Notes under the pieces: generated by a model | Database searches by the model: none | Seen by the model: only the letters and a program-made list of their open reading frames with translations | Told to the model about the DNA's origin: nothing | DNA from: Pyropia yezoensis | Taxonomy: Eukaryota > Rhodophyta > Bangiophyceae > Bangiales > Bangiaceae | Direction: 5' to 3' | Assembly (NCBI GenBank): GCA_009829735.1 | Contig: CM020620.1 | Span: forward strand, 6,340,545 to 6,404,544 | Length of the DNA: 64,000 nucleotides | Position numbers and translations under genes: made by a program | Part shown: piece by piece, positions 1 through 40,944 of the stretch | Layout: each line of letters starts with the position of its first letter | Numbering within the stretch: position 1 is the first letter of the stretch

Positions 1-2
1 CC

Positions 3-3000
3 GAGCGACAGCAACCCGATGACAGGAAGCCTAACCCATCGGCGCCTTCGGCGGAAATGCCGGCAAAGGACCAAGAAGCACTGAAGGCCCTGGCCGAGGC
101 TGACCTCGACCACCTTCCCCCTTCGGTAGCCGAAGGGGTACGGCGGATTCTAAGAAAGCATGACGTCATGTGGACAGGCGGGGCCTTGGGTACCATTGGG
201 GCAACCCAACATCGTATAGACCTGGTACCAGGCGCACGCCCCGCCCGGTCACAACCGCACCGAGCGGGACCTATGCAACGAGAGATCGTTGATGGAGAAG
301 TGAAGAGGATGAGCGAAGTCAAGGTGATACGACCTTCGATGTCGGAATGGGGTGCCTCAGTCGTTATCGTACCGAAGAAGGATCAAACCCCTCGGTTTTG
401 CATCGATTAGCGACGCCTCAACTTGGTTACCAAGAAAGACTCATACCCTTTACCAAGGATGGATGAATGCATCGACTCCCTGGGGGAAGCTACGGTGTTT
501 ACCACCATCGATTGCAATGCCGGATACTGGCAGATCCCAGTGGCGGACGAGGATATCCCCAAGACGGCGTTCGTCTGTCACAGTGGAGTGTACGAGTTCC
601 TAAGGATGCCCTTCGGATTGTCCAACGCCCCCGCTACATTCCAGCGGGCCATCGACATTATACTGTCGGGGGTGAAGTGGCGTAACTGCCTAGTGTACCT
701 CGATGACGTCATCGTTTTCTCGCGTAGCATGGATGACCATGTGCAACATGTTCACGAGGTACTCACCCTCTTGCGGAACGCCGGGGTAACCCTGCGTCTG
801 AAGAAGTGCGCCTTCTTCCAACAGACGGTCGAGTATCTGGGCCACCACATAACCCCTGGTAAACTAGGGGTACTCGAAGCCAATACCCGGGCACTCCGGG
901 ATGCCCGGTTCCCTAACACCCAGTCGCAGCTCAAGAGCTTCCTGGGAATGTGCAACGTATACCGACGGTTCGTCAAGGACTTCGCTCGGATAGCTAAACC
1001 GTTAACGGTTCTTACGAGCAGTACCTTGCCCAAGGTACTCCAACCCCCTTCGCCTAGCAAAGAGGAGGCATTCGAGTCGCTGAAGCGAGCCCTACTATCC
1101 CCACCCGTCCTGGCGTTACCGCACAGACGGGGTACTTTCGTCATCGATGTCGATGCATGCGATACACAAGTGGGATGCACCCTGTTACAGGGAGAGACGT
1201 TGATCGGTTCCGATACCGTTATCCCGGACCTACGTCCGGTGGGGTACTTCAGCCGGACACTCAACCCGGCTGAACGTAACTATCGTGCCACCGAGCGTGA
1301 GTGCCTCGGGATCATATGGGCAGTACAACTGCTCCGTCCATACCTGGAGGGCTCCAGGTTCATCGTGAGGTCCGACCACGAACCCCTACGATGGCTCCTC
1401 AACCTTGGTGACAAGAATTCCGGTAGCCATGGGAGGCTAGCCCGATGGAGGCTGAAGATGGCCGAGCACGACTACCGCACCGTGTATAAGGCTGGGTCAA
1501 CCCACCACCTCGGAGACGCGTTGTCGCGACTCGATACCCCAAGCGGGGATACCCGACAGGTGGACGAAGACATCCCGGTGGTACCGGTGTGCATGGTGGG
1601 TAATGCTACCCAAGGTATGGTTGACCATACCATGGCACACCTTGCGTGCCCGTTGACCCTCGCGGACTTCCGCGAGGCACAAGCCAATGACGACGACTGT
1701 AGACGCCATCGCGCTAACCTCCTGGCCGGTACGGCCGGCATCTTCTCCGAGAATGAAGACGGACTCATATACCGGCGGGCACCCGCCGACGGACGACATC
1801 AAGTCGTGGTTCCCGTGTCCTTACGGCAAGCCGTCATGGAACGAGAACACGAGAACCCTACAGCCGGACACCCGGGGGGTTCACGTATGTTCGCAGCAAT
1901 GCGAAGGTTCTTCTACTGGCCAGCAATGGCCGTCGACGTGGTCGACCACGTAAGGGGATGCCACCCCTGTGCACGTAACCGCATGAGTCTACATAGGCAG
2001 GCGTCTGCCATGAAACTGTTCCCACCTGATGGGCCCAACGAGCAGGTCGCTATCGACATACTCGGGCCACTTCCGGTAACGGAAGAAGGGAACAGGTACA
2101 TCCTAGTCATGTCAGACCGATTCACTAAGCTGTCACGAGCGGCAGCCATCCCGAATGATACGGCATAGACCATCATGAACGCAGTGGTTGACCACTGGAT
2201 CAGTGCATACGGAGTCATGAAGCAACTCCTCTCCGACAACGGAGCAAACCTTACGTCAGCATTCTGCACTAAGGTCCTGGGCATGTTCGGTATCGAACCC
2301 CGTCGGGCATCCGACTACCACCCGCAGTCCAACGGGCAAGGGGAGCGGTTCAACCGCACCATCGTCAAGATGCTCCAATGCTACGTGGCCGAGCACACGA
2401 ACACTTGGGACAGGCCTCTGTCCGTACTCACCCTGGCATACAATGCCAGGCCACATCGGAGCACAAACATCGCCCCACTGGAGTGGGTCATGCCACTAGG
2501 GGTCGGTAACCTGACGCTGCCACCCGGCAGGTGCACTCGGTATGATACACCGAAGGGCCGACCGGCCGAACGCATCCACCTAGCTTGGTTGGCCGAGCTA
2601 TCGTGGATGATACCCAAGCTCAAGGGTGCCCATGACAGAACACAACTTCGATACAAGAAGAACTTTGACGCCCGGTTACGGGTGCGCAACGCAACCCTGG
2701 TAACAGGTGACTGGGTCTACATCAGACACCAGAAGTTCCGAGGGAACAAGCTTATGCAACCGGTCAAGGGACCGTACCAGATCTTACACAGAGATGATCA
2801 CTCTGTCATAATGCACTCCGATACGGAGATACAACGCAGCAACCTCAACCATGTGACACCTGCTCCGAAGCCGGAACAGCCCCAGCCGGTACCGGCTGGG
2901 TTGCTACATGAAGCTCTTACAACCCACCGGTCAGATGACCCGGTGGGACCGGATGGGATTCCATACCAAGTAGAGAGCGTGGTCGGACACACCGACAAGG

Positions 3001-3125
3001 ACCTACCAGGACCCTGGTACGTCAAGGTTATGTGGGTCGGATACGACTCACCCACCTGAGAACAGGCGGCGAATATACCCCGCCAACTCCTCATGCCTTA
3101 CATGAGGCGACGACGCCTACTGTAA
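3..3125 (+). pseudogene. pol: Broken pol of element A (RT, RNase H, integrase, chromo-like end)
   Basis: One frame stays open from base 3 to the TAA at 3123-3125 apart from three nonsense codons: TAG at 408 (after FCID, where related copies have Tyr), TAG at 2166, and TGA at 3057 where a chromodomain Trp is expected. Reverse transcriptase is clear: SYPLPRMDECIDSLG, then the catalytic YLDD at 696-707. RNase H follows with VIDVDACDTQVG and VRSDHEPLRWLL. Integrase has the H-H-C-C zinc part (CHPCARN) and the core Asp in IDILGPLP, the second in LLSDNGA and the Glu in NGQGERFN. The end (VKVMWVGYDSPT, stop, EQAAN) resembles a chromodomain. Protein from these copies would need readthrough, so it is called a pseudogene. 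Confidence 0.92.
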
Positions 3126-3575
3126 CAACCCAACCGACACCGACTTCGGCTGTTGGGGGGTGAGGCTTATACCTACTGAGTAGGGTGTCACATGGACTCG
3201 GCAAGACTTAGGTTTACTAAGTTGGAGCGGACTTAGGCAAACTAAGTAAGCTACTGACTTTTACTAGTTTACTTGAAGGAGATGACTAACTCCGATAATC
3301 TCAAAGTAACCTAAGGCTTACACGAAGGTAAACCTTCAGCCAGGAGGCAAGTGACGGACCAAGAAGGTTGACCTTCATGAGTATTAACCAACCAGGATGG
3401 GTTGGGGGAGGCGGAAAAGAACCGAGGCAAGCCACGACTAAGTCAAACGGGGTACTCCCCAATGGCAGGCATTGGTATCTTGCAAACGCCCCAGCGGGGG
3501 ATGAGTTCATACTCACTACTACCCGGCCACCATAAGGGTTACCGGGGCCCTCTCCCTCACAAACAATAGCACTCC
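3126..3575. other. Convergent spacer of element A with two small hairpins
   Basis: This stretch lies between pol (+) and the antisense ORF (-), which run towards each other. It is less GC-rich than its surroundings. Two near-identical inverted repeats, at 3206-3222 and 3231-3247, each have an ACTTAG/CTAAGT stem. They could form hairpins in either transcript and act in termination or 3' processing, but that is inference. I see no ORF of note. Confidence 0.45.
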
Positions 3576-5945
3576 TCAGTGGGTAGACCCACTGCCCGAG
3601 GGAGGCCACACACACGTAAACGCGTATACCTCCGTGCTCCACCGGTCGGCAATCTCACGACGTTCAATCACCCGAGTTACCTCGGTGCATAGCTGGACGA
3701 GGGTGCTGCGGCCAGCCTCCACGTCCTCCAGAGCTGTCTGGAGGCGGTCAAGCACGCCACCGAAGCAACGCGCTGACCCAACCAGCGCAGCACCTGGGGG
3801 GATATCCCCCCAGCTAACAGAGAGACCCTCCCGCATTGCACGGGCAACAAGGGCGTCAACGCCCTCATACCAGAGACAGGGACCCCCGTCATGCATGACA
3901 GGGGCGGGAGGTGACACTGGCGCAGCCAGAGGAGCCACAGGAGCCGACACGGCCACCACCGGAGCCGGTGGCGCCTGCTATGAGGCCCGGTAGGACCCCA
4001 CCGAAGGGGCTCCACCGTAACCCCGGCGGGGCTCCGCCCGACGACGGGAGACCTCACGCTCCCCACCCGCAGAGCCCCACTCTCGGGGACGACGGCCAAC
4101 CGCCGCCGGTATCGGGTTACCGAACCACGGGGCAAGGACCTGAAGAGGGTCATGGATAACCATGGGAATACCCAGGTCAGCAACAGCCTCGGTGGGCGCC
4201 CACCCATGGCAATTGGGCTCAACCGGCTGAGTATGCCGGATACGCAGCGAGTGACGAGGCAAGGGGGAAGCCCAAGCCTGCGGGTCTCGGTACGAGGGGA
4301 GGGCCAACACCGCAGCCCAGTTCACGGCATCGTGAACAGCCAGCAGGGCCTCGAACTCCCGGGCCAACCCGGTCTTGGCGGCTATCAGGTCCACGCCCAA
4401 CTGCGCGATGTGCCAACGGACACCCGTCGGAAGATGAAACAGGCGCTCCTGCCGGCGGATGGACAGCAATAAGGAGAAAGCCTGCCCGAGGGTAACCTCG
4501 AGGGTGAAGGTACCCTGCAACGGGTGGACCGGCCGGGAGGCCAACACACTCCCGAAGTATCGGAGACAGGAGCCGGTGTCAAACCGGAAAGCAGGGGCGG
4601 GTTCCCACCCCTCCTGCCACAGAGGCGGGCGCACGGGAGTGTATACCGGCGCACGACCGTTGCCGGTCTGCAACGCACACGTTATATCGGTGCGGAACGC
4701 ATCCGCCATGACACCATGGTTACGTCGCCAGCTCGACGCCGACTTCAAACCCGCCATAGGAGGGTAGGGAGCCGTCAACGACAGATACGGGGATACCCCC
4801 GGGTAATAATCAAAGTCGGGATACCTACCGGTATCGCCCACCGTCTCCCCAAACGCAACCGGCTCCGCCGCCGCCGCAATCCCCCGAGCACTAGCCGGGT
4901 AGTCAACCTCCCGCGGCAACGCATGGGCAATCAGGTCGCATACCCCGAAGGCGGGGTCGAGGTAGACCTCACCCCGTCCCACCCGGGTGGGCCAGAGCTG
5001 CGCATGCCGGTCGTCCGGCTCACTCAGGATCCAATGGTGTTCCACCCGCACCGCGTTCGGCTGGTTGACCAGCCGCACCAACTCCCGCTCCCAACTCAGG
5101 TCCACCCTGACGCGGCGGGAAGTCCCTCCAGAGAGACGCGATTGGTGGAAGTCCACCCTGATCCGCCCAGCGGACTCCATTGACTCTTGCACAGTGATGC
5201 CTCGAACCCGAGCCACCAAGTCGGACATCGACATGGCGGGTTGACCTGCCGCCACGGCGACGCCGCCACCCAACGGGGCAACCCGGGCAGGACCAGGAAG
5301 AACTGGGGGCGCCGGGCGATGCCCCACCGGCAGATGGGCCGGCGCCGAAGGTGCACGAGGCCGAGGAGGAAGAAGAAGGGCGGGCGCCCGCCCGGAGTAG
5401 CTCCCGGAGTCCACTGCCATCGGGGTAGATAACTCTTGACCATCACGCGTCCGCGGCACCGCGGGCAGAGCATCGCCGCCACCCGGGCCCGACGAGGGTA
5501 CCACGGGGGCTGCACGGGTAGACCCGCTACCCGCCGCAGCGGACACACTAACCGGGCGGGCACTCGCGCCGTCTTGACCCGTCGAACCGGCCGGGGTGCC
5601 GCCACTACCATCCGCCACGCCGGCGACACCGTCTTGAGGTAGAGCCGCGCCGGCACCGGCGACAGAAGCCATCCGGGCCGCCGGAGGAGTAGCGGTAGAG
5701 GCCACCGCTGCACGCGGTTGTCCGCCACCCGACGGAGCCGTCGTGCCGCTACACACGGACGACAACCCGCCCGGCGCGCCTTCCGGGGGCACACGAACGG
5801 TCACCCGGTCGTCCTCGTCCTCCGACGAGCTCGCTAAGAAGCACCCGGCGGCGGTGGCAGAGACGGGAACGTCGTCCACCATCACCTCTTGCTCCTCCTC
5901 AAGCAGGAGGTCGTCCTCGCCCCCGGGTACCTGGGGATCCGACAT
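3576..5945 (-). pseudogene. Antisense ORF (aORF) of element A, unknown protein
   Basis: On the minus strand an ATG at 5945 in a good context (ACCATG) opens about 790 codons in one frame, broken only by a TAG at 3978-3980. The first 655 residues comprise an acidic start with a Ser/Asp/Glu cluster, a long Pro/Ala/Gly-rich linker, a folded-looking core (roughly residues 240-600) and a basic Arg-rich tail. After the TAG another 127 residues follow, predicted mostly helical. The core resembles the antisense ORF of element B: both have FGSV followed some 40 residues later by LFHLPTGVRWHIAQL (A) or LWHLPLRLIQGLEQL (B), and both have a PYL block further upstream. I recognise no known domain, membrane segment or zinc motif. 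Position and strand recall the antisense ORFs of plant Tat/Grande-type elements, but homology to those is untested. Confidence 0.7.
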
Positions 5946-6520
5946 GGTGAAACCAGGGTAGCAGGGGCGGCCCGTCAGACAAGCCGTCGACGGCTACGAC
6001 CCGGTACGGGGGGACAACCGGGACGAGTCAGGGAAGCGCGGGCACCCGCGCTTATGACCACAAACGGCCACGAGAAGCGCCGCAGGCACGCGGGTCGACC
6101 CGCGCTCCACGAGGCTACGAACACGCTCCACCCAGGCACCTGGGCGGGCCAGGGCCACACCCCCGTACGGGGCAACCAACAGGGGTTCACCCCGAAACCG
6201 CCCCCGCGAAAAGCGGGAGCGGCCGCCCGCATTCACTCGGTAACACGAGAGGGGCTCCCCTACCACCAGACACCTGGTGGCGGATCCGCTTGCACCACCC
6301 CTCGGAAAGGGGGGTCGTGAACAGAAACCCGCATCGGGAAATTAACGGTCCGGAAAACGAATCGTGTGTGTACCACACAAAGGGGGGCACCCCCCTCAGA
6401 CAACCTGGAAAAGGGGTGTCTGTCGCGACAGGGCGCAAAGCCCCACCCGACTGGTAAACGGTCACGCGACCCACTTACATTCGGTAACCCGAATGCAACT
6501 CGACCCGAGGACGGGCCGAA
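5946..6520. other. Non-coding stretch between aORF start and 3' LTR of element A
   Basis: There is no convincing ORF. The antisense ORF begins at its left edge, so any promoter for that ORF should lie here or in the LTR. I see no clear TATA box or other known element. Confidence 0.4.
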
Positions 6521-6535
6521 TCTGAGGGGGGGATA
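6521..6535 (+). other. Polypurine-like tract of element A
   Basis: A G-rich purine run ending in GGGGGGGATA lies directly before the 3' LTR, where plus-strand DNA synthesis is primed in LTR elements. It is assigned by position. Confidence 0.55.
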
Positions 6536-6898
6536 TGTAGCAATATGGTTGGCCGTATTGTGACCCTAATGTTAGGGGGGCTTCTTCTAATCTTTGGCTT
6601 TCAATTTGAGAGTCCGTACTGGTCACGGTATCTATAAGTTACGTATGACCCGAGGGACTTGCATCTTGGGGTGGAGGGTAGTTAGTAGTGTCTCCGAGGG
6701 TTTATAACGAGGGGGCCGGCGGTGAATCCACCGCCGGTCAAGGCAGAACAACAAACCCCTCCCATTTGGGCTCCCATCTTGGTCCCGTGGCTTGCGCTCC
6801 AAGGACAGCAACCTTGGCCTCCCGGTGACGTTGGTGCCGATCCCCCTTGGTGAGTGTTCCCTGAGAGTGGACGTGCGACGGATTCCTATTGTGCTACA
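6536..6898 (+). repeat. 3' LTR of element A (family 1)
   Basis: It starts TGTAGCA and ends TGCTACA, a 7-bp terminal inverted repeat, and is 363 bp long. A clearly related copy lies in reverse at 35418-35770; both share long blocks such as GGGACTTGCATCTTGGGGTG and the stretch around GTGAGTGTTCCCTGAGAGTG. The LTR-internal order with the upstream purine tract supports the call. Confidence 0.85.
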
Positions 6899-15918: not shown

Positions 15919-18230
15919 CCATGTTCCACTAGGAGTGGTATTTACTCTGACGTCGAACCGTCGGCGCTTAGCCCGGGGGGGGGCGTGCCTTCTCCATAGC
16001 CTTGATCATACCCTCTCCCATGGTGGAATGAGCCAGCATCATCCGCAGTCACGGAAGCAGATGCCAGTACGTGGATTGCTTTTTAGGCAGTCCCTTTGAT
16101 TGTTTCCGAGCTGCGCCGCAAACGTCACAGGCTGTCGTGTCCCGCCGTTCGACTATAAAAGCTACACACCCCGCTCTACAGCAGTCAACTTTCCGCATTT
16201 CTAAGGTGGCACTTGCCTCTATCTTTGACTTGAGGCGATGGGGACTGCGGCAAGTACCCGAGTGACGGCGCTGTAGCAGATAATCCTCAGTCGCACCCCG
16301 CGCAGGCAGTGCTCAGGGCCTTATCCGGAGCACTATCCTCGTTCACTGGAGCGCATGTGGCACCGCTCGGGGGATAGATGCGACCTCGGGGGGGTCGCGT
16401 GATGCCGCGGTCCTCTTGCGGCGAGGCGGCAGCCCACTTGTCAGGGCGTACCCACCCATGCGGATTAACGAGGCGACTAAAACGAGGCCATATATTGGTT
16501 CTTTGTATGCAAGTTTTACTTGCCTTTCGTCACAACTTGAAAATCAATTCTGTTAATCAGACGTGCGTATCACAACGCGCCCGATAGTCAGGCCCTTTCC
16601 AGCTCCCGCTTTTGTTCGTGTACGCGTACGTGTCTCCTCGCGTATGCGGCTCCCATTGGTCGCCCATGTGACGGCGCAGGGTACACGTACAGACTTCCGA
16701 GAGGGCCGGCTCTATGTCTAATCGAAGCATACATCGGCGTACATCGACACTAACAGAACTTACAACGCATTTATCTGTCGTAATACAAGGTGGCCTCTCT
16801 CAGGATCAGATTGCCCTGCAACCGGCATCGGCAAAGAGTCTACACTGGCACCGTGCTGCGCCCCGTCGACCGCTCCCCTTTACCGACCACCCTCTGGCCG
16901 ACTACCCCCTCCCCCGACCATCCCTCGTGCCCCCCGCCCCAGTAGCTACGCGCCCCCTGTTCGGCCCGCCTGTAGTGCCACCAACACAATTGGTCACGTC
17001 GCGTATTGGGAGTGGCTTTGCGTTTAAGTTCGCGGTACACCAGCGTGGTATGGAAACTGCTCGCCATGTTCTTTCCAAGCCCGTCACATGATACAGTATC
17101 GCGATATACGAATCAAATCGAACTTGGAAAGGGCGTCAGCTGACTATCGGTGTGACTAAAACTCGCTGCTTTGGTCACCCCGATAGTCAACGGACCAACG
17201 GAAGTTTCCCTGGGCTTCATCTGATTGGCTGTCGCTTCGTTACAAGAATATGCGATTTCGCTCTGTAACGTTACATTATAGCCCATTGTCGGATGGTCAC
17301 AGTGGTGGATACTGTATGCCCTCAGGCGCCGGTGCTCAAACCACGTGGCTCGACTCACTCGTGGACGTCCGCCCGCTACTCCCCAATGCAAGCGTACGTC
17401 AGCAGCAGCCGAAGCGGCGGCGGCAGCCGAAGGAGTAGCGGCAGCCACAGCAGTGTGGTCGGCGGAGCGAGCCCGCGACGACACAGTCCGCAGCAGCGGC
17501 GGCAGCCGTCCAAGGTGGTCCTGGAGAGGTTCACGGACGAGCAGATGGACCGCCGCCGTTGCGCCGCTGACGCCGCGCGCGGGTGCGCCCCCCGAGTCGG
17601 GGGCCCAGATCAACGACCGCCACCGTGGACCCGCCCACCCGCACCCGCGGCATCCTCCATGCCGCCACCGAGGAGCTTCCCCCATGCGCCACGCCCCCCC
17701 CCCACCCCCCCGCCACCCACACGGTGAGGCGGCGACAGCGCTGGCGGCGGCGCGTCCGTTGACGGGTAGCTGGGGGGGGAAGGCCGCGTAGGGGGGTTGT
17801 CGGTGGTGACCACGGCAGTGGCAGCGGCAGTGGGCCGGCGGCCGCGGCGGCCGCGGCCACCGCCGCCGTCCGTCGCCACCGTGCTATTGGCTTGGGGGGG
17901 GACGCCGACGGCAACGGCGTCGGCGACGGCGGCGGCGGCCGAGGCTTGTCCCAGAAAGTCCACAGGCCATAGACGTGTTGTACAACAAGAGAATGGCTGG
18001 GCGTGCGCCCCGTCGGTCGCGTGGCTCGCCCCGCTGCCTGTCCACCCCACGCACCGGCGCCGGCGCGCCGTCTGCAGCCCAACCGCTGGGTGAGCAGCCC
18101 CCCAGCCCCCGTCCAACTCCCACACATCCAACCGCACCAGTAGGAACGGGACAAGCGGCAAGGCCACACACGAGCACCGGAGGTAGGCGGCGGCGGCACG
18201 CTCGTCATCGTACAGACCGTCGGCATCCAC
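15919..18230. other. Intergenic region with CCGATAGTCA inverted repeats
   Basis: No gene is supported. The motif CCGATAGTCA occurs at 16581-16590 (+), 17141-17150 (-) and 17180-17189 (+). The first two are followed inward by a shared GCCCTTTCC block, making an imperfect inverted repeat about 560 bp apart that could mark a small DNA element. From 17390 on the sequence turns into CAG/CGG-rich low complexity with long uninformative frames on both strands. Confidence 0.4.
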
Positions 18231-18245
18231 ATCGAGCAGCGCCGC

Positions 18246-18285
<40 letters not shown>

Positions 18286-18934
18286 ACCGCTGCCGCCGCT
18301 GTCGCCGCCGCCACGCAACGGCTGTACCGCGGCCGCTCCCCCCCTGCGACAGACGGGCAGGCAGCAGGGACCGCGTGCCCCCGACCATACAGGCGGTCGC
18401 ACGAGGATGCGGAGTGGCGCACAGGGAGGGGGGGGGGGGGGGGGGGACAGAGAAAGGTCATAGGTGGCGCGGCTCGCCCGTCTCGTAGACAGCACCCCAC
18501 CTACACCCGCCGCCGCCGCCGCGCATGGCCGCGACCGACCAGCCGCGGGGGGGGGGGGGGGGGGAGGGGCGACCGACCGCCCCCCGCCGGCGTGGTCCGC
18601 GTCTCCCCGGGCGGGCTCGGCACAGCCACTGCCGGGGACGGCGGCGCGGGCGGCCGCCGCGTGGCCGGCCGCGAGGGGGCGCCTGCCCGCCACCATGGCC
18701 GCAGGGCCCGTCCGCGTGGGCACCGCCGCGGCACGGAGGCGGGTGGGTGGGCAGGCGGGAGGGCTGGCTGGTGGGGTGGGCGGGAGGGCGGGGCACGCCG
18801 CGCCACCCCCCCCCCCCCCCCGCCACCCTCCTATCCTGGACACGGATCAGCAGCCGCTGCTGCTGCGTGAGTGCACCCCCTCCCCCCTCCCCCCCCCCAC
18901 CGCACTCACCTCCTTCCCCCCCCCTCCCCCCGCA
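18231..18934. repeat. Simple-sequence tracts: (GCC)n and long G and C runs
   Basis: A GCC/CCG triplet tract spans about 18238-18310, then there are long G runs at about 18427-18447 and 18547-18562 and C runs at about 18807-18821 and near 18890-18930. These lie downstream of the PCH2-like gene. They are prone to polymerase slippage and assembly error, and the G runs could form G-quadruplexes. Confidence 0.7.
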
Positions 18935-19217
18935 TTACCCACCCGCCCCCCCACCCCCCAACGCGGCGCGCTCCGCGGCCTCGGCGGCGGCCACCGCAGG
19001 CAGTCTCCGCACAAACGCTGCGACAGACGGCGGCACCCCCCCCCCCCCGCCGACGACGCGCCCGGCGCGGCGGCGGCGGCGAGCAGTGGCAGCCGCCGGA
19101 GGGCGCGGCCGGATAGGCCCGCCGTCGCGGCGGCGGCGTCGTCGAGCGCGGCGGCCGCCGCGTCGCCCAGCACGGGGGGGGGGAAGGGGGAGGTCGCCCC
19201 GCCGTCGTCGGCAACGG

Positions 19218-19250
<33 letters not shown>

Positions 19251-19516
19251 GGGGGGCCGCCGCGCCGTCGTCACCGCCGTCGGGTGCGAGGAGCCCCGCG
19301 CGGAGGAGCTCGGCGATGGCCGAGGCGAGCACCGCCCGCCGGGCGATAGCCGACGGGAGCCCCACGTACGCCTTGATGTCCGCGCGGTCGGCAAACGCCG
19401 TGTCGACGGCGGTGGGCAGGTTGCTGGTCGTTAGTGTCAGCACGTTGGGCACCCGCCGCAGCGTGTCCAGCTGCGTCAGCAGCGCGTTGACCACCCGCAT
19501 CGCGTCGCCGGGATCC

Positions 19517-19548
<32 letters not shown>

Positions 19549-20574
19549 CCCTCCGCCGCCCCCCCCCAAGCGGGAGGTTGTGAGCGACTCGACCTCATCC
19601 ACCACCACCACCACCAACGTGGTGCCGTCCGCCGCGGCGGCCCGGATGGAACGAAAAAGGGCGGTCACGCGCTTGGCGCTCTCGGAAAACCAGCGGCTGT
19701 AGAGCGCCGCGGGGGACACCGTCGCCGCCACGGCGCGCGCATAGACGGCGGGGACAAGGCGGGTGGCGAGCTTGTGGCCCAGCGCCGCCGCGAGGCTGCT
19801 CTTGCCCGTCCCGGGGGGTCCGTGCAGCAACACGACGCGGCTGGCCGTGACCAGGTGCGGCGCCACCCCCGCCGCCGCAAAGCGCAGGGCAGTGGCGGCG
19901 TGGCCCAGCAGCCGCCGCTTGAGGGGGGTGTCAAAGTGCAGCGACTCCCACAGGCCTTCCAGGTGCGCCGCGGGCAGCGGCGTGGCCACGTACGCCGCCG
20001 ACCCGTCGTCGCCGCCACCGTCGCCGCCGCTGTCGTCGCCGCCGTCGGCGTCGGCAGCGTCCCCGTCGGGGCCAGCGTCGTTGGCCGAGGCGAACGGCGC
20101 GGCGCCCCCCCCAGCGGCAGCCGCCGTCCCCTCATCATCCCCCTCCAGAACGTAGGGGTGCACGTGCAGCGCCGCCGCGGCGGGGTCCACCGACCAAACT
20201 GCGCGGGGCGGCGGCGGCGTGGCGCCCACCCCCCCCCGCCCCCCCCCGTCGTCGTCGGGGACATTGTCATCGGCAAAGTCTCCCACCCGCGCGGCCACCA
20301 CGTGCGGCGCGATCGCCGGGTCGGCGGCGGCGACGCCGGCCAGTGGCGCGCCCGACATGAGCGCCGGTGCCGCCGCCGCGAGTGCCGCGACGCGGGCGGC
20401 CACCCACGGCAGGGGGGCGGCACTGGACGCCGCCACCTGCACGTCAATGTGGACGTCCAGCCGCCGCGGAGGGGGGGGGGGAGAGCGAGACGCCGCCGCC
20501 ACCGCCGCCGTCGGGGGGGAAACGTGGGGGGGGGCGCCCCGGTTGGCCATGTCCAAACCGCCGCCGCCGCCCAT
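18935..20574 (-). CDS. TRIP13: PCH2/TRIP13-like AAA+ ATPase (apparent frameshift in a G13 tract)
   Basis: PCH2/TRIP13 remodels HORMA-domain proteins (Hop1/HORMAD, Mad2) in meiosis and the spindle checkpoint. The ATG at 20574 (MGGGGGLDMANRG) is the first in frame. The N-terminal part has RRLDVHIDVQVAASS, like the family's substrate-recognition domain. Then come WESLHFDTPLKRRLL (about residue 209), Walker A GPPGTGKS (about 252-259), RWFSESAKRV, Walker B VVDEVESL (about 325-332), sensor-1 LTTSN, the Arg-containing DRADIKAYVG and GLSGRALRRLPLL. Poly-Gly and poly-Ala insertions interrupt conserved parts. As read, the frame changes at a G13 run (19036-19048): the literal frame gives a meaningless tail to 18847, while shifting by one base gives VPPSVAAFVRRLPAVAAAEA and a TAA at 18935-18937, the family's usual helical end. 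Total about 546 aa against about 430 in animals. The shift may be a sequencing error or a real lesion. Confidence 0.88.
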
Positions 20575-21559
20575 GTCAAGGGGAAACAAGTACAGAGCGC
20601 TGTCAGAGGAAGAGAGATGGGCGGTGGGCGAGGTGCCTGCGAGGCCACCAGGGAACCAACCCCCTGGATCGCTCGGCACAGTTCGACGATGTGGTCGGAG
20701 TGGCTGGAAACGTCGCGAATCCAGCGCGCAATCGACCCTCGGCACGGTTCAGGGGGGGTCCGAGACATTAGAGACTTTCAACAGGTACAGATCTCGTTAC
20801 AGATCTCGGTAGTTTCTCGGTAACGTGGCACCAGGATTCCCTTACCTTGCTAGGGTTGTGCAGCGCTCCCAATTTTGGTGGGCGTTCGTGCGGATCACGC
20901 CCGAGAGCACGCCGGGGCACGCCCCGCAAAGTTCATCACGCCCATCCCGCATCCAAAGTAGACCACCTAATTATTTACATAATTCGCCCGAATATCGTCG
21001 TGGTACCCGCAGATCTTATTGGCGGAGCCGTGATGGGACACGGCGATCCTTCCCCTGTCTTGGAGGCCTCAGATCAGCCACAGCACACGAACGGACATCG
21101 TCCGAGACGCAGGCGCTGTCTGCCGTTGGTGGTGGACGCGTGAGGGGGGGACGCTGACCGACCGCCGCGTCACCGCTGCCGAGGTGGCACGCGGCGGTTG
21201 GGGGCGGCGGCCCGGTACACAAAAAAAGGGGGCAACTCCTACGTGAGACTTTCCAGCTCCTACACGAAACCGCGCTACTCCTACCCCCCCTCAATGGGCC
21301 TCTATGGGGGACGCCACTCCTACCCACTGGCCTGTATGCCCCCATCATATTTGCAATCGATGCGATCGTCCACACGCTGGGGAGCAGTCACTCCCGCGAT
21401 CGCCGCCGGCATGGGGAGCACCTCGTGGGGGACAGGCCATGGGGTGCTGCCAGCTTGCCCGGCAGGGGGCGCGTGGCACCGCCGCCGGCGACCCCCCCCG
21501 GGGGGGTCGCCCGGGGGGGCGGGCTGCAGCTAGCACCAGCGGCTGGTTAAGTAGAGGGG
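20575..21559. other. Upstream region of the PCH2-like gene, no other gene seen
   Basis: This holds the presumed promoter of the minus-strand ATPase gene. A short tandem repeat (ACAGATCTCGTTACAGATCTCG) lies at about 20787-20810. Around 21230-21330 a CTCCTAC motif recurs. No TATA box or coding region is convincing. Confidence 0.35.
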
Positions 21560-22567: not shown

Positions 22568-22798
22568 GGTGGGGCGGCTGCCCGTGGGGGGCGAGTGGCT
22601 GTCCGTGGGGGGGGGGGGGCTCGCCCTGCGCGGGGCGGCTGGCCTGGTGGGGGCAGTCGGCGTGTGGCCGGTGGCGGCGGCTCGTCAGGGGGGCCGAGGC
22701 GGCGGCTCATCAGGAGGTGAGAGGCGGCGGCTGGCGGAGCGCTGGACGGGGGGGGGGCGGCCAGCGGCTGGCGGGGGCGCCTGGCCGCTGGGGGTGGG
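22568..22798. repeat. G-rich minisatellite, middle block
   Basis: This continues the 21560-22098 array with the same CTGGCCG and GGGGCGGC units, lying between the solo LTR and the 5' LTR of element B. Confidence 0.8.
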
Positions 22799-23267
22799 TG
22801 TGGCAGTATTGACCCCCAGGTAGGGGGTCAACACGTGCCATGCAAGGGGTGGCAGGCCACTAGCCTGATACGTTCTTCCCCCTGCATTTGGGTCCATATT
22901 CCCTAAGTTTGGCATAGTTTGCTTAGTAGTAAATCCAACTTGGATTTGAGGGTTTTCTGCATTTATCGTCTTGAATTTTCGTGTGGCCCGGTGGGCAGGT
23001 GCTGAGGTGGGAGATTCTGAGTGGCGAGATTCTGAGGGGACCCTGGGGACATAAGGGGAGGGACAGCGGGGCTTGGCCCTGCGTCCCCGTCCCGACCAAG
23101 AAACTGTTGGACCACACACCATCCTCTTGTTTGTCCGTGGGGGGTTTGCCCCACAACAGGGACAGCGTGTGTGCGACTTGCACTTCTTCCGGTTCCCCCG
23201 ACACGGGAGGCAGCCCTTGCACACCGCCCCAACTTGGGTGTCGTGTGTGCATGTGGTTTTTGCCACA
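22799..23267 (+). repeat. 5' LTR of element B
   Basis: It runs from TGTGGCA to TGCCACA, 469 bp, the same length as the 3' LTR, the solo LTR at 22099 and the 5' LTR of element C. I saw no strong TATA box. Confidence 0.93.
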
Positions 23268-23268
23268 T

Positions 23269-23286
23269 TGGGTGGAGCAGCAGGGG
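23269..23286 (+). other. Primer-binding site of element B
   Basis: TGGGTGGAGCAGCAGGGG lies one base after the LTR. Element C has TGGTGGATCAGCAGGGG and the family 1 copy has TGGTGAAGCAGCAGGGG in the same place. TGG pairs with a tRNA CCA end; I could not name the tRNA. Confidence 0.65.
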
Positions 23287-23387
23287 ACAGAGGTAAACTT
23301 TACCTCCGGGTGCACCCGGGTGTAGGGGGCCCTCTGTCTCAGAGGAACGGTGGACTTGGACCGTGTCATACGGATCGTCAGCCAACA

Positions 23388-25333
23388 TGGCTAGTTCGGA
23401 TCCCCCGTCGTCCGGGAAGTACACGGGTGACGCACGTACTTCAGTGCCTTTGAATACAGGTGAGACACAGGTGGGTTTACCTGGGGTCGCAGAGGGACTA
23501 GAGGTCCCTCAAGCCAGCAGGACTGGAAGTGCGGGCGGGCAACAGGCCACGCCGACTTAGTCGGGAGTTCACTCGGGTGACACTTCTGATGTGGGTGGGC
23601 CGAAGTCTGGCCACCGTGTGGTACACTCAACGGGAACGTCCCAAGGGGTGAGGACTGTCCCCGCGGGTTCCACTCGGGTTGGAGCCAACTTTGGCTTGGA
23701 GCCGTCGCCAACTAGGCTTTCGGAGGACGGCGGACCTCCGTTGGTCGGCGATGGGCTCGCGCCCGTGCCCCCGGTTGAGACCCCTGAGGAACGTGGTTAC
23801 CCCTCAGGTGGACTCCCGGAGGCGGACCGAGACTCAACTGGAGTCGTCAATCCACTCCTAGCGGAAGCTGTCCGTCGGGAGGCGACCAATGTGTTGCGGC
23901 AGACTTTGCCGGACCTGGTGGTCACGATGACGAATACAACTCTGAATCAGATTGTGGCGAGTTTGCCAGATGGCCTTAATGTCCAGACCGGATCGGGGCT
24001 TTCGAGCCCGCAGGCGCAAGGGGAATCCCTCCTCACGCCTACCTCTGGTCGCCCCGAACAGGGGGCAACACCTGTGACTCCCAACGAGGGAGCCACACCA
24101 TACTCGGTGGGGCGTACGCCCTTCATGGGTGAGTTCCCCCCGGAAACGCCGGCGGCTACACCAAGCGCGCCGCGCCGGACTACAGGCACTGAGGGTGAAT
24201 TTACCCCAGTGTCACAGCGGCTGTTCCCTCAACGTGACGTGCCGCCCAAGATCCAGGTAGCCAACCCGGTCTCCCAGAGGATCTTTGACTGTGAGACCTA
24301 CCCCCTCCACAACAAGTCGGTGGTGTATGGTCCTGTCCAGGCCCGAGCCGTGGGCCGTGCCAAGAAGAATGCACTTCACTCTTTTGGGCACAAAGCGGAG
24401 TGGGATGGAACTCCCCCCCTCCGTGTCTTTGAGTTCCTACGTCGTTTCACAAAAGCCTGTGACGACAATGCCATAAGTGAAGGCATGGCTTTCTACATGC
24501 TACGGGAGTTTACGAAGGGAGACCTGCGGACAGAACTTATATCCGTCATGCCCAGCTCCTCAAGTGGAGGCGCCGGTGAGGTGACGTCCTATTTGGAGCT
24601 CGTCAACTGGTTGTTGAGAGCCATGGTTGATGAAGCGGCGCTGGCTTCTCAAGTCGAGGAGTTTACGCAAGCCCATCAGGAAGAGGCGGAGGACGAGTTG
24701 TCCTCTGCGGAGCGAGTCCGTAAGCTCAACAATCTTTGTGGGTTTCTTCATCCACAAGCTGTGGTGAAGAGTCGGTTTGTGGAGGGGTTCCATTGGTCAG
24801 TCCGGATGGAGACCCGGGAGCATAACACTGCCCGGGCGACCCTGGCCGAGTTGGCTAGGTTCGCCTACCGCAGAGGTGAGGCGCACCGCAAGTTGCGGGA
24901 GGAACAACGCCAGGAGTGTCAGTCCGAGTTGGCCAAGGAACGAGAGGAGGCGCGCCAGGCCAGAGAGCTGAGAGAGGCACGCCGAATCCGCAAGGAGAGG
25001 GTGGTAGCTGCCGTGGGAACTTCCCAGGGTATCACTTCGTCTTCCCCAGTTGGGAAGACCCCTCCGGGAACTGACCATCGGTGTTGGAACTGCAACTCCG
25101 ATGGACACTGGGCATATGATTGCCCCAAGTTGAGTAAACGCATCCAACAACTTGTTAGGAATGCGAGTAAGAAGTCGGCTACGAACGAAGTACGTTCACG
25201 CCGCGAGGGTGGGTCTCGACCGTTGGTGGCGGTCGCCACACCCTCGGCGAAGAGGGCGGACACGTCGTCCTCAGACTCGTCGTCTTCCCCTTCGCCCTCA
25301 GATTCGGACGCCGAGTCGGCGGGAAACGAATGA
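23388..25333 (+). pseudogene. gag: gag of element B (one nonsense codon)
   Basis: Gag forms the particle shell and packages the RNA. The ATG at 23388 (MASSDPPSSG) opens a frame to the TGA at 25331-25333, broken by TAG at 23558-23560 where element C has CAG. The first 200 residues are Ser/Thr/Pro/Gly-rich. The capsid-like part (VFEFLRRFTKACDDNAISEG, then LVNWLLRAMVDEAAL) is helical, followed by a charged coiled-coil-like stretch and one CCHC zinc knuckle, CWNCNSDGHWAYDC, at about 25083-25124. The C-terminus is rich in Ser/Asp/Pro. The stop codon overlaps the pol start as ATGA. Confidence 0.88.
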
Positions 25334-28300
25334 CCGTTGGAGCTGGTCGTCCGAAGCTCACAACAGCAGCCTCGGCCAAGTGGGTCAAGAGGACGAAGCA
25401 ACCGTGCCGGATACTGCCGCGACCTAAGGGAGTCCGCCCACCTCGGGTAGGACTCCCCAAGAACGTAAACCCACGTCGGGTCATCGCGGTGCTGACGGGT
25501 GAGAACTTCCAGGTGGCTGGACGGATGCAACTTGCCCCCGGCCGCGCCTGTTGTGCCCGTATCGTACTTGATACCGGGTCAGGAGCCTCCTTGATACGCA
25601 AGTCGCTATTACCAAAGGAGATGAAGCTCCGACGCTGGAAGTCTAAAGCCGACCATCTGATCGATATCAATGGTGGGGTACTTCCCATCGTTGGTGCCGT
25701 GACCCTACCAACTAGGTTGGGGACCCATGAGGTCGACGTGACCTATGGAGTAGTTGAGAATATATCGGTACCCCTGCTTCTGGGTACCCCTTCAGTTGTT
25801 ACACAAGTGCCTTTGATTTGTGGCCCTGATTATTGGGTCAAGTTGATGAATGGGGAGACCATCCCCATCCTTGGTAAGGGAAAATCTGTGGCTCCTGTGA
25901 CAGTCTCACAGTCAAAGCCTGTTTGCTCTGTGAGAGAATGATTTACTGCTACCCTGCGTTTAGCCCGTAAAGTCACGTTGCCCCCCAACTCGGTGGCGCA
26001 CGTTGACGTTGTAACTGATTATACGGGGAACGGGTTGGTGCACCCTCACCCCCGTCTTGCTCGCAATCGCAAGCACCAAGTGCATGTTGCCCTTGGCACG
26101 ATGGACTCCAAAGCCGGAGTCCCGTGGAGGATCCAGGTTATGAACCTGAGCTCGTCGCCCAAGTACTTCAAGTCGGGAACCATGTTCGGCTATATCGACC
26201 AACATGAGGGACCGGTAGTAGCGGTCACCCTCAATGCGGGCGCGAATAGCGACCCGAAGGCAGGAAAGGAGAAGCACCAAGCCAAGTCGGCCGCCTCTCC
26301 TCGTCCCCATGTGAACATGGAGGGTGTTCCACCCAGGTTGAGGGTTCAAGTTGAACGCCTCTTGGACCAATATCACAAGTTGTGGGATGGTCAATTGGGA
26401 CTCATGAGAGCCACCCAACACCGGATCGAGCTGAAGCCCGGTGCACCCCCTATACGCCAACAACCGTATAGGGGAGGACCCCATTCAAGGGCCCTCTTTA
26501 AGGAGCAAGTCGTTCGCATGGAGGCCCTCGATGTGATCGAGGCCAGCAACGCCGAGTGGGCGAGTCCGGTGGTTATCGTCCCCAAAGTTGATGGGACCCC
26601 CCGCTTCTGTATCGACTACCGTAAGCTCAACGAGAGCACGGTGAAGGACAGTTATCCCCTACCTAGGATGGACGACTGTCTGGACTCTCTGGGGGAGGCG
26701 AACGTGTTCTCTACCCTGGACTGTAACGCGGGGTATTGACAAATTCCCATTGCCCCGGAGGACAGGCATAAAACTACCTTTACCTGTCACTGTGGTACCT
26801 ACCAGTGCAAGCGTCTACCGTTTGGCCTGAGTAACGCGCCGGCAACTTTCCAGCGCGCTATGGACATGATTCTGGCCGGAGTACGGTGGCAGATCTGTCT
26901 CGTGCACCTAGACGATATCATTGTGTTCTCCCGAAGTCCGGAGGAACACATTGGCCATCTTGGCCAGGTGTTCAAGCTACTTGCTGACGCCGGTGTGTCA
27001 CTGAAGGCGAGTAAGTGCCACCCTCAAGAGGTGGAATACTTGGGACATGTTGTCCGTCCGGGGCGCCTCAGAGTCAACGAGAAGAACTTGAGGGCCATCC
27101 ATAAGGCTCAGTACCCCCGGACCCAGACCCAGATGACGAGCTTCCTCGAGATGTGTAACGTGTACCGACGTTTCACCAAGGGCTTCGCCAAGGTGGCGAA
27201 GCCGTTGAATGAGCTAGTGAGCTCAACGCTACCGAAGAACCTGCCTCCCCCAAGTCGGGTGGAGCAGGAATCCTTTGAGACTCTTCGGGACCTTCTGCTG
27301 AAGCCCCCTATCCTGGCTATTCCCAGGTTGGGAGGCCACTACATACTGGATGTGGACGCTAGCTACGACCAACTTGGTTGTGTATTGCTTCAGCAGCAGC
27401 TGGACTAGGAGTACTTGCCGGTGGGAGACTTCAGCAAGGGGCTGAACTCGGCCGAGAAGAACTACGGAGTCACCGAGTTGGAAGGACTCGCAGTGGTGTG
27501 GGCGGTGACGTCACTTCGTCACTACCTAGAGGGTGAGAAGTTTCTCATCCGCTGTTACCACCGCGCGTTGCAGCTCATCTTTAAGACGGACTGTACGAAC
27601 ACTCGTCTCAACCGGTGGAGGGTGCGACTGGCACCCTTCAACTTTGATATTGAGTACCGACCTGGCAGGCAACATGCCCTTGCCGACGGCCTTTCTCGGG
27701 TACCTACCGAGGGGCTAGACACTAACCCAGTCGATGAGGATATCCCCATCGTGGGGGTAGTCACGCGCTCGGGTCAGGTGTTGAACCCCGAGGCGCCAGG
27801 GAACAAGAAGTACTTGCCCCTGTCCCTGGACGAGGTGGTGAAGGCCCAGGCCGAGGATCCCTTCTGCAAGTCGCAGAGGGATACACTGGATACAGTGGCG
27901 GAGACGCGGTTCTTTCTGGGAGACGATGGCCTCCTCATGAGGAGGGAGGTATTCCAGGGGACCGAACAACTTGTCGTCCCCGCATCCCTCAAGGACAGTA
28001 TCCTTGAGAGGGAGCACAACGCTCCCACGGGTGGACACCTGGGGTCTAGTAAACTGTACCAGACTCTGAGGACCAGGTACTACTGGCCGTCCATGGTGGT
28101 GGACATCTACAGTTGGGTGACTGCCTGCACAAGTTGTGCACAAAAACGTCTGATGGAACGGCGGCCTACTACGGCTATGCTATTGTTCCCGGCCAAGGAG
28201 CCCTTTGCCGCGTTGGCGCTGGACATCCTTGGGCCACTGCCAGTGACCGAGGAGGGCAACCAGTACCTCCCGGTCATCTGTGACCGCTTCACGAAACTTA

Positions 28301-29313
28301 CGCGAGCGATCCCACTGGCAGAGATCACGGCCATGTCGGTCGTGTCAGCCTTCCTAGATCACTGGGTTGCCGCGTATGGCATTCCGGATAGTACACTATC
28401 GGACAATGGACCGCAATTTGCGTCTGTACTGTTTCAGGGAGTGCTGGATATGTTGGGGGTTAAGGCAAACTGTGCCACCCCCTACCACCAACAAACTAAT
28501 GGGCAGGTGGAGCGTTTCAACAAAACTATTGTTCGGCAGCTGCGCCACTATGTGAGTGAGCACGTGAAAACGTGTGACCAATACATTTCTATTCTTACCA
28601 CTGCCTACAATTCGCAGGTTCACTCATCTACCGGGGAAGTACCCCTCGCTTTTGTGACCCCCCGTCGCGTGCGGTCTATTGCCGTGCGGCGGCCGCTCCC
28701 AACTAGGGAGGATGGTGGCAGTACGCCTACTCCTACTGAGAGTAAGGCGGAGTTCGCTGCTAAACTTGAAAAACTCATCCCTAAAGTCAGGGCTGAGACG
28801 GACAAAGCACAAAAGCGCTATAAGCGCACCTTTGACAAGAATGTGCGCATTGCTAAGCATGTCCCCGAGCAGGGTGACTGGGTGCTGGTACACTCACACA
28901 CCCCAACTGGGGGTAAGTTGGTATTCGAGACGAAGGGGCCGTACCAGGTCCTTCGTACTGATGGGCGGCGCTTCACCATCAAAAGTGACGATGGGGTCCG
29001 CACAGTGAACGGACAGGACGTGGTCAAAGTTGCACCACCGCCTGCAGGCGACCCAGCTTGGGCGCGTGCGTTGGAAGCGTGGCGCCTCCCCTCGCTGCCT
29101 GCGGCCAAACAGGGCCCGCAGGAGTACGTGTTCGAAAAGTTTATCGACCACGGCTGAGATGAGGACACTAACCGCCTCATGTTGAGGGTGCGTTGGTTTG
29201 GCTACAAGGCCAAGGATGATACGTGGGAGTATGTGGAGGACCTTCCCGCTGAGAAGGTCCGGGCATACTGTGCCCGGAATGAGAAAGACCCTAACAGCCC
29301 TCCCTCAACGTGA
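25330..29313 (+). pseudogene. pol: pol of element B (PR-RT-RNase H-IN-chromodomain), four nonsense codons
   Basis: The ATG at 25330 shares ATGA with the gag stop. One frame runs to the TGA at 29311, interrupted by TGA 25939, TGA 26737 (Trp of NAGYW), TAG 27406 and TGA 29155 (Trp of DHGW). Protease has VLDTGSGASLI. RT has FCIDYRKLNESTVKDSYPLP, but the catalytic box is HLDD (26905-26916) instead of YLDD. RNase H reads RCYHRALQ where C has the catalytic Asp (RCDHRALQ). Integrase retains H-H-C-C, ALDILGPLP, LSDNGPQF and NGQVERFN. The end, LRVRWFGYKAKDDTWEYVED, is chromodomain-like. Altered active sites plus stops show it is dead. Confidence 0.92.
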
Positions 29314-29424
29314 GGGAAGGCCGAGTAACAGTGCCAAGAGAGTGCTTCAAGTCGAAGTGGTACGCAGAGTGGCTTTTAACTACAGCCCTAACCCTCAAAC
29401 TCTCACAACAAAGGCAGCTGCCAA

Positions 29425-31368
29425 CTAGGCATGCATTCTAGACTCTCCAACCCCACGGCCCTCGCCCTCACGAGGAGGCGAGCGGCGAGACCCACAGCGA
29501 TAAGGCTCCCCACTAGTCGGCGGGGCCGGCGGCTCCAAGTCGGAACCGCCGCGCCCCTCACGGTCGCGCAAGTGGCGACGACCGCGGCTACTCTTCTGCT
29601 CAGTCTTGCGCGCAAGTTGGCGACGCAGACGCCGGACCGACTCCGACTCTGACGGAGTCGAGGACTCCGAGACGGAGCAAGACAACTCGTCTTCTGACAC
29701 GGAGGGAGAGCGCCGCGAGTGTCGGCGACGACGTCGAGGAGGCGAGTATGCCCGGCACGCGCGACGTTTGCCACGCCCAAGTGGGGCTGGCTGGGGCATA
29801 ATAGCCCCGATGCAAGCCAACTCGGCCGTCATAAACTCCGCGACCGACTCGCAACTCGCGGTCGCCACTGCAGTACGAACGCGCTCCTCAAGTTGAGGAG
29901 TCTCGGAACTCTGGAGGGTTGCGGTCGACGCGGCCAGCCAGGAAATGGTGCGCACAAACGTGGTGATCATCATCTCTGAGGTTAGAGGCGTGGGCAGTAA
30001 CACCAACTTGGGGTATACCGTCAGGAGGGTGGCCCCCAAGTTGGGGGAAACCGGGGTGGACGACTCAACGGCCACGCTAATCGGGATGTCCCCGTGCGGC
30101 TGGTAGGGGACAGGAGGAAGCGGAGGGGCACGCCGAGGTGGCGGGACCCGGGTGTAACTGCGACCCCGACTTGGGGCCCCCGCAGTGGGTTGAGTCATAT
30201 GGTCATCATATGAGGGCACGGCCATAACTATGGCCTTGTCCGGGGGTGGCGCAGTGTGGCGATCCACCCCCGGGGCATACGGGTAGTCCCCGACGCCCAA
30301 CCCCTCTCGTAGGACCACACAGCCGTCGTGAAGTTCACGAGCGACCCACACGAACTGACGAAGTGCGCCATCGTCCTTGGGCCCACGAGTGGGGCGGCGC
30401 AACTTGTGCTCAATGCTCTCCCACTCGATAAACTTGTGGAGGCGGAGCATCTCCTCAAGTAGAGTGAGTTGTCCTGATGAGCACCCCTCAGCAACTAGCT
30501 GAGGGGTAAGCTGTTCCAAACCTTGGATAAGGCGGAGGGGGAGATGCCAGAGCATCCCCCGCCGCTGACCGCAAGACACCCAGGTCGACATGACCTCGAG
30601 GAGCCACTGGGTGGCCAACATAGCCCACACCAGGTGATCAGTGCTAGCCGTCAACATGACGGAGCCGAAGTGGTCATGCAACCGTGGTAACAACGCCGGG
30701 AACCCGTAGAGAACCTGAACTTGAGGCCACCACTCGGGCTTTTTCGGCTAGTACTGCTCCTTACTGGCAGCAGACTGCTGAGGGAGCTCAAGTTGAGCCG
30801 AGGTCACCAAGTAGGGACCTCGCCGGAAGTCCTTCTCCATCCGCACATCAAAGTGATGAGTGTGCGGATCGGCCTCGTGAAGGTACGGGGGGCGAGTTCC
30901 CACCGCGTCCCAAGTAAAGGTCGACAGGTCGCCGGGACCCGGGATAGTTCCCCCGCGGTCCACCATGGCCTTGGCCCGCTGTACGTCTTCGACTTCGTCA
31001 TCGTCCAGGAAGGCAAACTGGTCCGTCCTGAAGCCGGCAGGGAACCCGACCCTACGGGGATACTTCTCCCGTAGGCGGTCCCATACCCGACCCATCGCTG
31101 CGCCAAGTCGGCCACAGCGAAGAACAGTCTACTTCTCCTCATAGAGAGGCCAAGCGGGGTAAAACCACCGCCCCAAGGCCTCACGCGGGACAACTTGTCC
31201 CGCCTCCGGGGGAAATCCCGCCGTCAACCCAAAGCCGGGTGACGCGGGAGTCCCATCCCCCGGAGCGATCGCGGAGCCCCCGCCGGAAGTCCCGGCGGGT
31301 GCTGCACCGTAGGTGGTGTCCTCCATACGCTCATCTAGAGAGTCCGTCTCCACTCCCGGGGTCGCCAT
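29425..31368 (-). pseudogene. Antisense ORF (aORF) of element B, unknown protein
   Basis: On the minus strand the ATG at 31368 in a strong context (GCCATGG) opens 648 codons in one frame to the TAG at 29425-29427, broken only by TAG at 31129-31131 and TAG at 30748-30750. It begins MATPGVETDSLDERMED, similar to the start of A's antisense ORF (MSDPQVPGGEDDLLLEEE). The middle contains PGDLSTFTWDAVGTRPPYL, FGSVM and LWHLPLRLIQGLEQL, which align with the corresponding parts of A's ORF. The last 130 residues are Arg/Ser/Glu-rich, like a nucleic-acid-binding tail. No known domain is recognised. It lies between pol and the 3' LTR and converges with pol, leaving a 111-bp spacer. Its length and frame have survived better than random antisense sequence would. 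Confidence 0.72.
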
Positions 31369-31689: not shown

Positions 31690-31706
31690 AACTGAGGAGA
31701 GGGGAG
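31690..31706 (+). other. Polypurine tract of element B
   Basis: The purine-rich run GAGGAGAGGGGAG lies immediately before the 3' LTR and would prime plus-strand synthesis. Confidence 0.65.
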
Positions 31707-32175
31707 TGTGGCAGTATTGACCCCCAGGTAGGGGGCCAACACGTGCCATGCAAGGGGCGGCAGGCCACTAGCCTGACCCGTTCCTCCCCCTGCATTTGGG
31801 TCCATATTCCGTAAGTTTGGCATAGTTAGCTTAGTAGTAAATCCAACTTGGATTTGAGGGTTTTCTGCATTTATCGTCTTGAATTTTCGTGTGGCCCGGT
31901 GGGCAGGTGCTGGGGTGGGAGATTCTGAGTGGCGAGATTCTGAGTGGACCCTGGGGGGATAAGGGGAGGGACAGCGGGGCTTGGCCCTGCGTCCCCGTCC
32001 CGACCAAGAAACTGTTGGACCATACACCATCCTCTTGTTTGTCAGTGGGGGGTTTGCCCCACAACAGGGACAGAGTGTGTGCGACTTGCACTTCTTCCGG
32101 TTCCCCCGACACGGGAGGCAGCCCTTGTACACCGCCCCAACTTGGGTGTCGTGTGTGTAAGTGGTTTTTGCCACA
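31707..32175 (+). repeat. 3' LTR of element B
   Basis: It is 469 bp, TGTGGCA to TGCCACA, followed directly by the GTGGG target duplication. Confidence 0.93.
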
Positions 32176-32300
32176 GTGGGTACCTGGCCGGGTGGGGGGG
32201 GCGACTAGCCCTGCGGGGGGGCGGCTGGGCAGGGGGGGGGACGGTTGGCCAGGGAGTGCGGCGGATAGCCGGGGGGTTGGGCGGCTGGGCATGGGGAGGT
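32176..32300. repeat. G-rich minisatellite, right block
   Basis: CTGGCCGGG and GGGGCGGCTGGGCAGG units continue the array found left of element B, confirming that B inserted into it. Confidence 0.75.
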
Positions 32301-38719: not shown

Positions 38720-38721
38720 TG

Positions 38722-40921: not shown

Positions 40922-40944
40922 AGCAGCAACCGTCGTCAACAACG

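Follow-up and report, generated by a model that had tools for sequence, protein, structure and literature searches.

A probable antisense accessory gene between pol and the 3' LTR of two diverged Ty3/gypsy families in the red alga Pyropia yezoensis

Antisense genes of LTR retrotransposons are known mainly from flowering plants and some fungi, and deltaretroviruses carry antisense genes of the HBZ type. The class considered here is that of antisense additional ORFs placed between pol and the 3' LTR (aORF-3R), and accessory genes at this site are already known in plants and fungi. In PMC7264820, GENE23 of Grande and the ORFs of RIRE2, Wallabi and Gran3 are described as long antisense ORFs between pol and the 3' LTR, with no clear protein relatives and kept across copies and species. 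GENE23 is moreover reported there to be nuclear and to have its own promoter. The Retand antisense proteins with the Transposase_28 domain (TRP28, PF04195) are encoded at this site and on this strand in 61 of 63 clusters and are predicted to bind DNA, according to PMC11963269, in which Retand is a non-chromovirus found only in flowering plants. An extra antisense gene of the Boty-like gypsy elements of Botrytis cinerea, brtn, is named in PMC7264820 and PMC8365987, and the deltaretrovirus antisense genes have been proposed as a parallel for a regulatory role (PMC7264820 and PMC11963269). Among the titles and abstract beginnings listed in searches of the open-licence literature, no antisense ORF is described in red-algal retrotransposons.

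We have analysed a window of 64,000 nucleotides of P. yezoensis (contig CM020620.1, positions 6,340,545 to 6,404,544) in which two retroelements, A and B, contain an ORF of this kind; genome searches covered 107,475,971 bases in 11 contigs. The slot and orientation are those of the Retand and Grande type genes, whereas the proteins of A and B gave no PF04195 match. The hosts of GENE23, RIRE2, Wallabi and Gran3 are land plants and their sequences were compared with A and B only via Pfam; brtn has a fungal host and is likened to A and B by description and not by sequence. No homology is claimed with the deltaretrovirus genes, which serve as an analogy of mechanism only. The features of the window needed here are the following (window coordinates).

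423..3125, plus strand: pol of element A, with RT, RNase H, integrase and a chromodomain-like C-terminus, tail-to-tail with the antisense ORF
3126..3575, no strand: spacer of element A between two convergent genes (pol and the antisense ORF)
3576..5945, minus strand: probable accessory ORF of element A, antisense, with 789 codons and a stop codon; the window copy has an internal TAG at codon 656
5946..6535, minus strand: leader of element A from the antisense ORF start to the 3' LTR, presumed antisense promoter region
6536..6898, plus strand: 363-bp 3' LTR of element A, reading TGTAGC...GCTACA
22798-32181: whole element B
22798..23273, plus strand: 5' LTR of element B
23591..25333, plus strand: gag of element B, with zinc knuckle
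25330..29313, plus strand: the part of element B with protease, RT, RNase H, integrase and chromodomain, in which stops and frame changes break the reading frame
29425..31368, minus strand: probable accessory ORF of element B, antisense, with 647 codons and a stop codon; the window copy has two internal TAGs
31706..32181, plus strand: 3' LTR of element B, sharing 96.2% identity with its 5' counterpart
37799-45368: element X, a young gypsy element with LTRs at about 37799-38719 and 44448-45368, 99.7% identical

Both A and B are assigned to Ty3/gypsy by the order RT-RNase H-integrase and by their gypsy-type domains. RVT_1, RT_RNaseH and Integrase_H2C2 of Pfam were matched in both, while rve was above the cut-off in B and below it in A, and B gave in addition a protease-like match. 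The chromodomain of B (PF00385) scored 27.5 bits against a cut-off of 25.1 with the letter X placed at the stop. For A the score stayed under the cut-off, at 16 bits in one copy, and the fragment from the window copy gave no match; the end of the A pol is at most weakly chromodomain-like. The lineage carrying the ORF is a red-algal, chromovirus-like Ty3/gypsy. The pol of the window copy of A has stops at 2166-2168 and 3057-3059, the leader has a purine-rich tract at the end adjoining the 3' LTR, and an ORF in gag position (placed as such by its position) is found upstream of the window. The tandem unit of A ends where the 3' LTR ends, and a second A unit lies directly upstream (window 1-6898 together with C3:6330545-6340544). 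As these units are 99.95% identical over the 6541 bases compared and directly adjacent, with a unit length of 10,357, they apparently share one LTR. Element B also has a B-type LTR copy in inverted orientation beside its 5' LTR, at a distance of 231 bases (window 22099-22567 and 22799-23267).

The preliminary description had reported a minus-strand ORF with a single TAG in A and one with two TAGs in B. Read from 5945 to 3576, the first has indeed 790 codons, with the TAG at codon 656 and the terminal stop at 790, and the second, from 31368 to 29425, has 648 codons with TAGs at codons 80 and 207. The longest stop-free runs in the window copies are 671 (A) and 440 (B) codons, the maxima in 1000 Markov shuffles per region being 472 and 430, so that the decayed window copy of B is only just above chance. 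In one other open-frame copy per family the runs are 805 (A) and 713 (B), with shuffle maxima of 425 and 431.

The state of the frame in other copies was assessed in 19 A and 20 B copies, taken from the upper, better-scoring half of the 40 best DNA matches listed for each family and so not a random sample; a partial second A-like copy inside locus L024 (92.5%) was excluded before counting. Twelve A copies were clean, without stop or indel, one had a one-base insertion, five were interrupted by a stop (including the tandem twin, which has the TAG of the window copy) and one was truncated. The B copies were clean in eight cases, had one gap and one insertion in two and internal stops in ten. The start codon was ATG in all 39. 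In both families many copies besides those of the window thus have an open ORF, and since 12 of the 19 other A copies and 8 of the 20 B copies keep the frame open, the TAGs of the window, which among the sampled copies are confined to the window copies and, for A, the tandem twin, represent decay. By protein identity to A, measured at five places, further subfamilies could be distinguished: C, E and F at 91% and D and G at 69-71%. One D-type copy that was examined had two stops, of which one is simply where the frame ends. Each of the D and G copies entering the comparisons below has one in-frame stop, and a D-type DNA query gave at least 42 matches in the genome. With a protein of Pyropia vietnamensis as query, 67 places were scored out of 2176 candidates (50-53% identity), 45 of them without a stop, and 74 of the 76 best places for B were likewise stop-free, both tallies being tilted towards intact copies because they come from the best-scoring places among the matches listed.

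The proteins of A and B are homologous: BLASTP gave 46.2 bits (E 3e-9, 24% identity over 242 aa), and the Smith-Waterman score of 112 exceeded all shuffles (maxima of 77 in 500 global shuffles and 88 in 500 local ones with 20-residue blocks). The core blocks that had been proposed as common (PYL, FGSV and LFHLP/LWHLP) were aligned between both proteins. Of the similar acidic N-termini claimed for them, that of A is strongly acidic, with 17 acidic residues among the first 50, and that of B only mildly so, with 7. Three protein searches, with A, with B and with an alignment that includes A- and B-type rows, scored only about 8000 candidates, those with most words in common. The search with A found six proteins, four of which are hypothetical proteins of P. 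vietnamensis at 42-52% identity, the best of these standing for a cluster of 19 sequences; the one with B found a single near-identical protein, and the alignment found ten, six of them from P. vietnamensis. A conserved extra protein, as the preliminary description had called it, is thus present in a second Pyropia species. The six P. vietnamensis proteins matching the antisense protein (MMPV_009242, 008948, 008454, 001347, 009449 and 006872) are probably themselves genes of retrotransposons, which suggests that some of the "hypothetical proteins" in Pyropia annotations have this origin.

The arrangement relative to pol was near-constant among the matches listed. In all of the 22 places where both match lists meet (16 of the best 67 and 6 of the best 40, the latter including the window copy and its twin) the integrase was on the opposite strand to the ORF and convergent with it. 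The distance was 533-561 bases for the 16 places and, counted from the query edge, 944 for the other 6. Element X has an intact pol frame of 1163 codons, including the chromodomain, that ends at 44436, and within 37799-45368 an antisense ORF between pol and LTR is absent; this pol ends about 11 bases before the 3' LTR, leaving no space there for such an ORF. Pol identities were 55% and 38% between A and B, 30% between X and A, and 37% and 29% between X and B, placing the pols of A and B nearer to each other than to that of X. On these comparisons a single gain of the ORF before the A-B split would be the simplest reading, and the ORF was probably kept afterwards by purifying selection on the protein. 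An array on C2 at about 9.88 Mb (about 9880067-9892399; L051, L054) has four A-like antisense ORF places with a period of 3489, and the one spacer read, in L054, goes from the leader through the LTR directly into the post-pol spacer, without gag-pol. It suggested that the abundant A-like subfamilies might be elements made only of LTR and antisense ORF, an idea rejected as a general rule: the tandem array is one locus, in 10 of 10 other copies (of the C, F, D and G types) the 250 bases flanking the ORF matched the normal pol-ORF spacer and not LTR, and beyond this spacer integrase was present in 16 of the best 67 places.

The dN/dS measurements that had been suggested for the frame gave low values, far under 1, for the comparison of B copies and for that of A subfamilies, and a value not significantly below 1 within family A. 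Comparing one copy each of A and D, dN was 0.195 and dS 0.793 (ratio 0.25), with 126/96/257 differences at the three codon positions. Along the same comparison the ratio was below 0.5 in each block, with a minimum of 0.08 at residues 394-469, before and into the FGSV motif. Over two A copies the ratios were 0.24-0.27 against D and G and 0.38-0.49 against C, E and F, and C/E/F against D/G gave 0.24-0.28. Close pairs were high or mixed (A-A 0.97, C-E 0.67, D-G 0.58, E-F 0.35, C-F 0.21), as would be expected if much of the difference arose after insertion. Variants shared by at least two B copies (20 copies plus the window) fell 17/6/54 by codon position, with 25 nonsynonymous changes observed and 52 expected (omega about 0.21, p 3e-11), and B singletons had an omega of 0.70 (p 0.0005). 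Family A alone (19 copies plus the window) gave 62 nonsynonymous among 97 shared variants (omega about 0.78, p 0.13) and an omega of 0.85 for singletons (p 0.07), which by itself is no proof of selection. Ratios between B and the A-like group were left unused because they are near saturation (dS 1.6-2.2). The pol of family A (8 copies plus the window) had an omega of about 0.15 for shared variants and 0.33 for singletons, and its mean pairwise identity was 0.956 (8 copies) against 0.974 for the antisense ORF (18 copies, a different set). In this family pol thus combines greater diversity with strong constraint, and the antisense ORF combines greater uniformity with little sign of it, a pattern that recent recombination or replacement of the 3' part would fit.

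An open homologous frame in both families, the convergent layout, conservation across species and low dN/dS are the grounds on which we consider it almost certain that the antisense ORF is a coding gene under selection. In the A protein the acidic N-terminus is followed by a long linker of low complexity, the conserved core and, at 600-650, a stretch rich in arginine. The strongly basic stretch of B is at about 530-600, and the arginine-rich character of the C-terminal part is strongest in B. The conserved core covers about 200-250 residues. No known domain had been recognized in the preliminary description, and neither Pfam nor PDB profiles gave a real match: seven members and the window frames had no Pfam match, six core fragments gave nothing beyond one match at chance level, and the PDB sequence profile search gave one chance-level match (E 0.17) and no solved relative. 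An AlphaFold model of a 468-residue relative (11 sequences) was unusable, with a mean pLDDT of 34.3 and a pTM of 0.21, only a C-terminal stretch reaching 60-77. Among viral contigs four stretches fitted a pattern and none of them encodes a relative, and plasmid records gave no match. Hydrophobic segments of membrane-span strength were absent (maximum 19-residue means of 1.33 and 1.23, one protein per family), which together with the antisense orientation speaks against an env-like third ORF; the lack of Pfam matches and the separate ORF in gag position in each element speak against a gag. The protein of A and B apparently represents a new family, one seemingly unrelated to the known ones, in a new host lineage.

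Several other explanations have to be weighed against a selected gene with a regulatory product. The region has 67% GC, long chance ORFs are common in the window, and the frame could be a by-product of this composition and of codon constraint from a gene on the sense strand. The other five frames in the A-D comparison gave ratios of 1.42, 1.83, 1.14, 0.37 and 1.89, and the mirrored frame with 0.37, which is on the sense strand and has its third positions in common with the ORF frame, is indeed low as well. But the lowest ratio is that of the ORF frame, the ORF length is beyond the 1000 shuffles, the three opposite-strand frames contain 6, 18 and 13 stops in the one copy checked, and the homology between A and B and with P. 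vietnamensis runs in the ORF frame. Homology and frame controls refute this reading, which we find scarcely credible. That the antisense RNA is itself the product, damping the element as double-stranded RNA with the ORF being incidental, is a possibility known for plant and animal elements (PMC7264820), but it does not account for codon selection (dN/dS 0.24-0.27 and 0.21, with an excess at third positions) or for a protein conserved across species. The codon pattern largely refutes RNA as the sole function, a decidedly improbable one, while its coexistence with the protein would be possible. Capture of a host gene by transduction has precedents, since accessory genes of retroelements can come from cellular sequences (PMC7264820 and PMC11963269). 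A recent capture is nevertheless very unlikely, with the ORF shared by two families that have diverged strongly and represented by several annotated proteins in a second species, and with dozens of element copies as the best genome matches among those listed; a diverged host gene could have escaped detection, given that only the best matches were listed.

A block of B (L-D-x-F-G-x7-P) resembles by eye what we take to be the plant Transposase_28 domain. The ORF could then be a very distant member of the Retand/Tat antisense family, inherited or transferred, which would agree with the placement and strand known from Grande, RIRE2 and Retand (PMC7264820 and PMC11963269). The likeness to Tat/Grande noted in the preliminary description stands for position and orientation and fails for sequence: neither the proteins nor their core fragments matched PF04195, and the pattern of conserved positions of TRP28 fitted no better than shuffles in 5 of 5 proteins. 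A genome search for PF04195 was blank too, but so were the control genomes, and this blank is no proof of absence. The lineage here has a chromodomain-like pol end, as against the non-chromovirus one of plants, and such a kinship appears improbable. The alternative that we take most seriously, although still rather unlikely, is that of a structural or enzymatic accessory factor, such as a particle component, an RNA chaperone or an integration-targeting partner, instead of a regulator. It is favoured by the large size of the protein, its conserved core and arginine-rich part, its retention beside pol in both families, and by pol and ORF travelling together at constant spacing where both are seen. 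Against it, B owns a gag with zinc knuckle and A an ORF in gag position (by its position), and a transcript from the opposite strand would be an unusual source of a particle component; domain searches favour neither side.

Our preferred explanation, a selected antisense accessory gene acting as a nuclear regulator of its own element, stands for us at about an even chance as a whole. For the specific part in which the protein regulates from the nucleus by binding nucleic acid, as opposed to having some other accessory function, our confidence falls slightly short of even. Position, composition and the plant parallels suggest the following route. A separate antisense transcript would start between the ORF and the 3' LTR and would be translated into a soluble, partly disordered protein, with its acidic N-terminus, low-complexity linker, core and arginine-rich region towards the C-terminus. 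This protein might act in the nucleus on the nucleic acid of the element, regulating transcription, RNA handling or integration, as proposed for GENE23 of Grande and TRP28 of Retand.

Tentatively, and with somewhat more doubt than confidence, we suggest that red-algal chromoviruses gained an antisense protein in this slot independently of the plant Tat/Retand and the fungal Boty elements and kept it until two families had diverged to 24% identity. If so, the antisense slot from pol to the 3' LTR would be a recurrent home for regulators encoded by elements, much as deltaretroviruses have their minus-strand genes. The antisense protein gene described here is under selection in a red-algal lineage with a chromodomain-like pol, and the many similar copies, the diverged second family and the homologs in a second species provide enough sequence to define the conserved core. 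These elements could be a compact system in which to ask why such genes occupy the opposite strand. Elsewhere in the window, the region 18001-20800 has 72-78% GC and contains long overlapping ORFs on both strands, of up to 632 and 412 codons.
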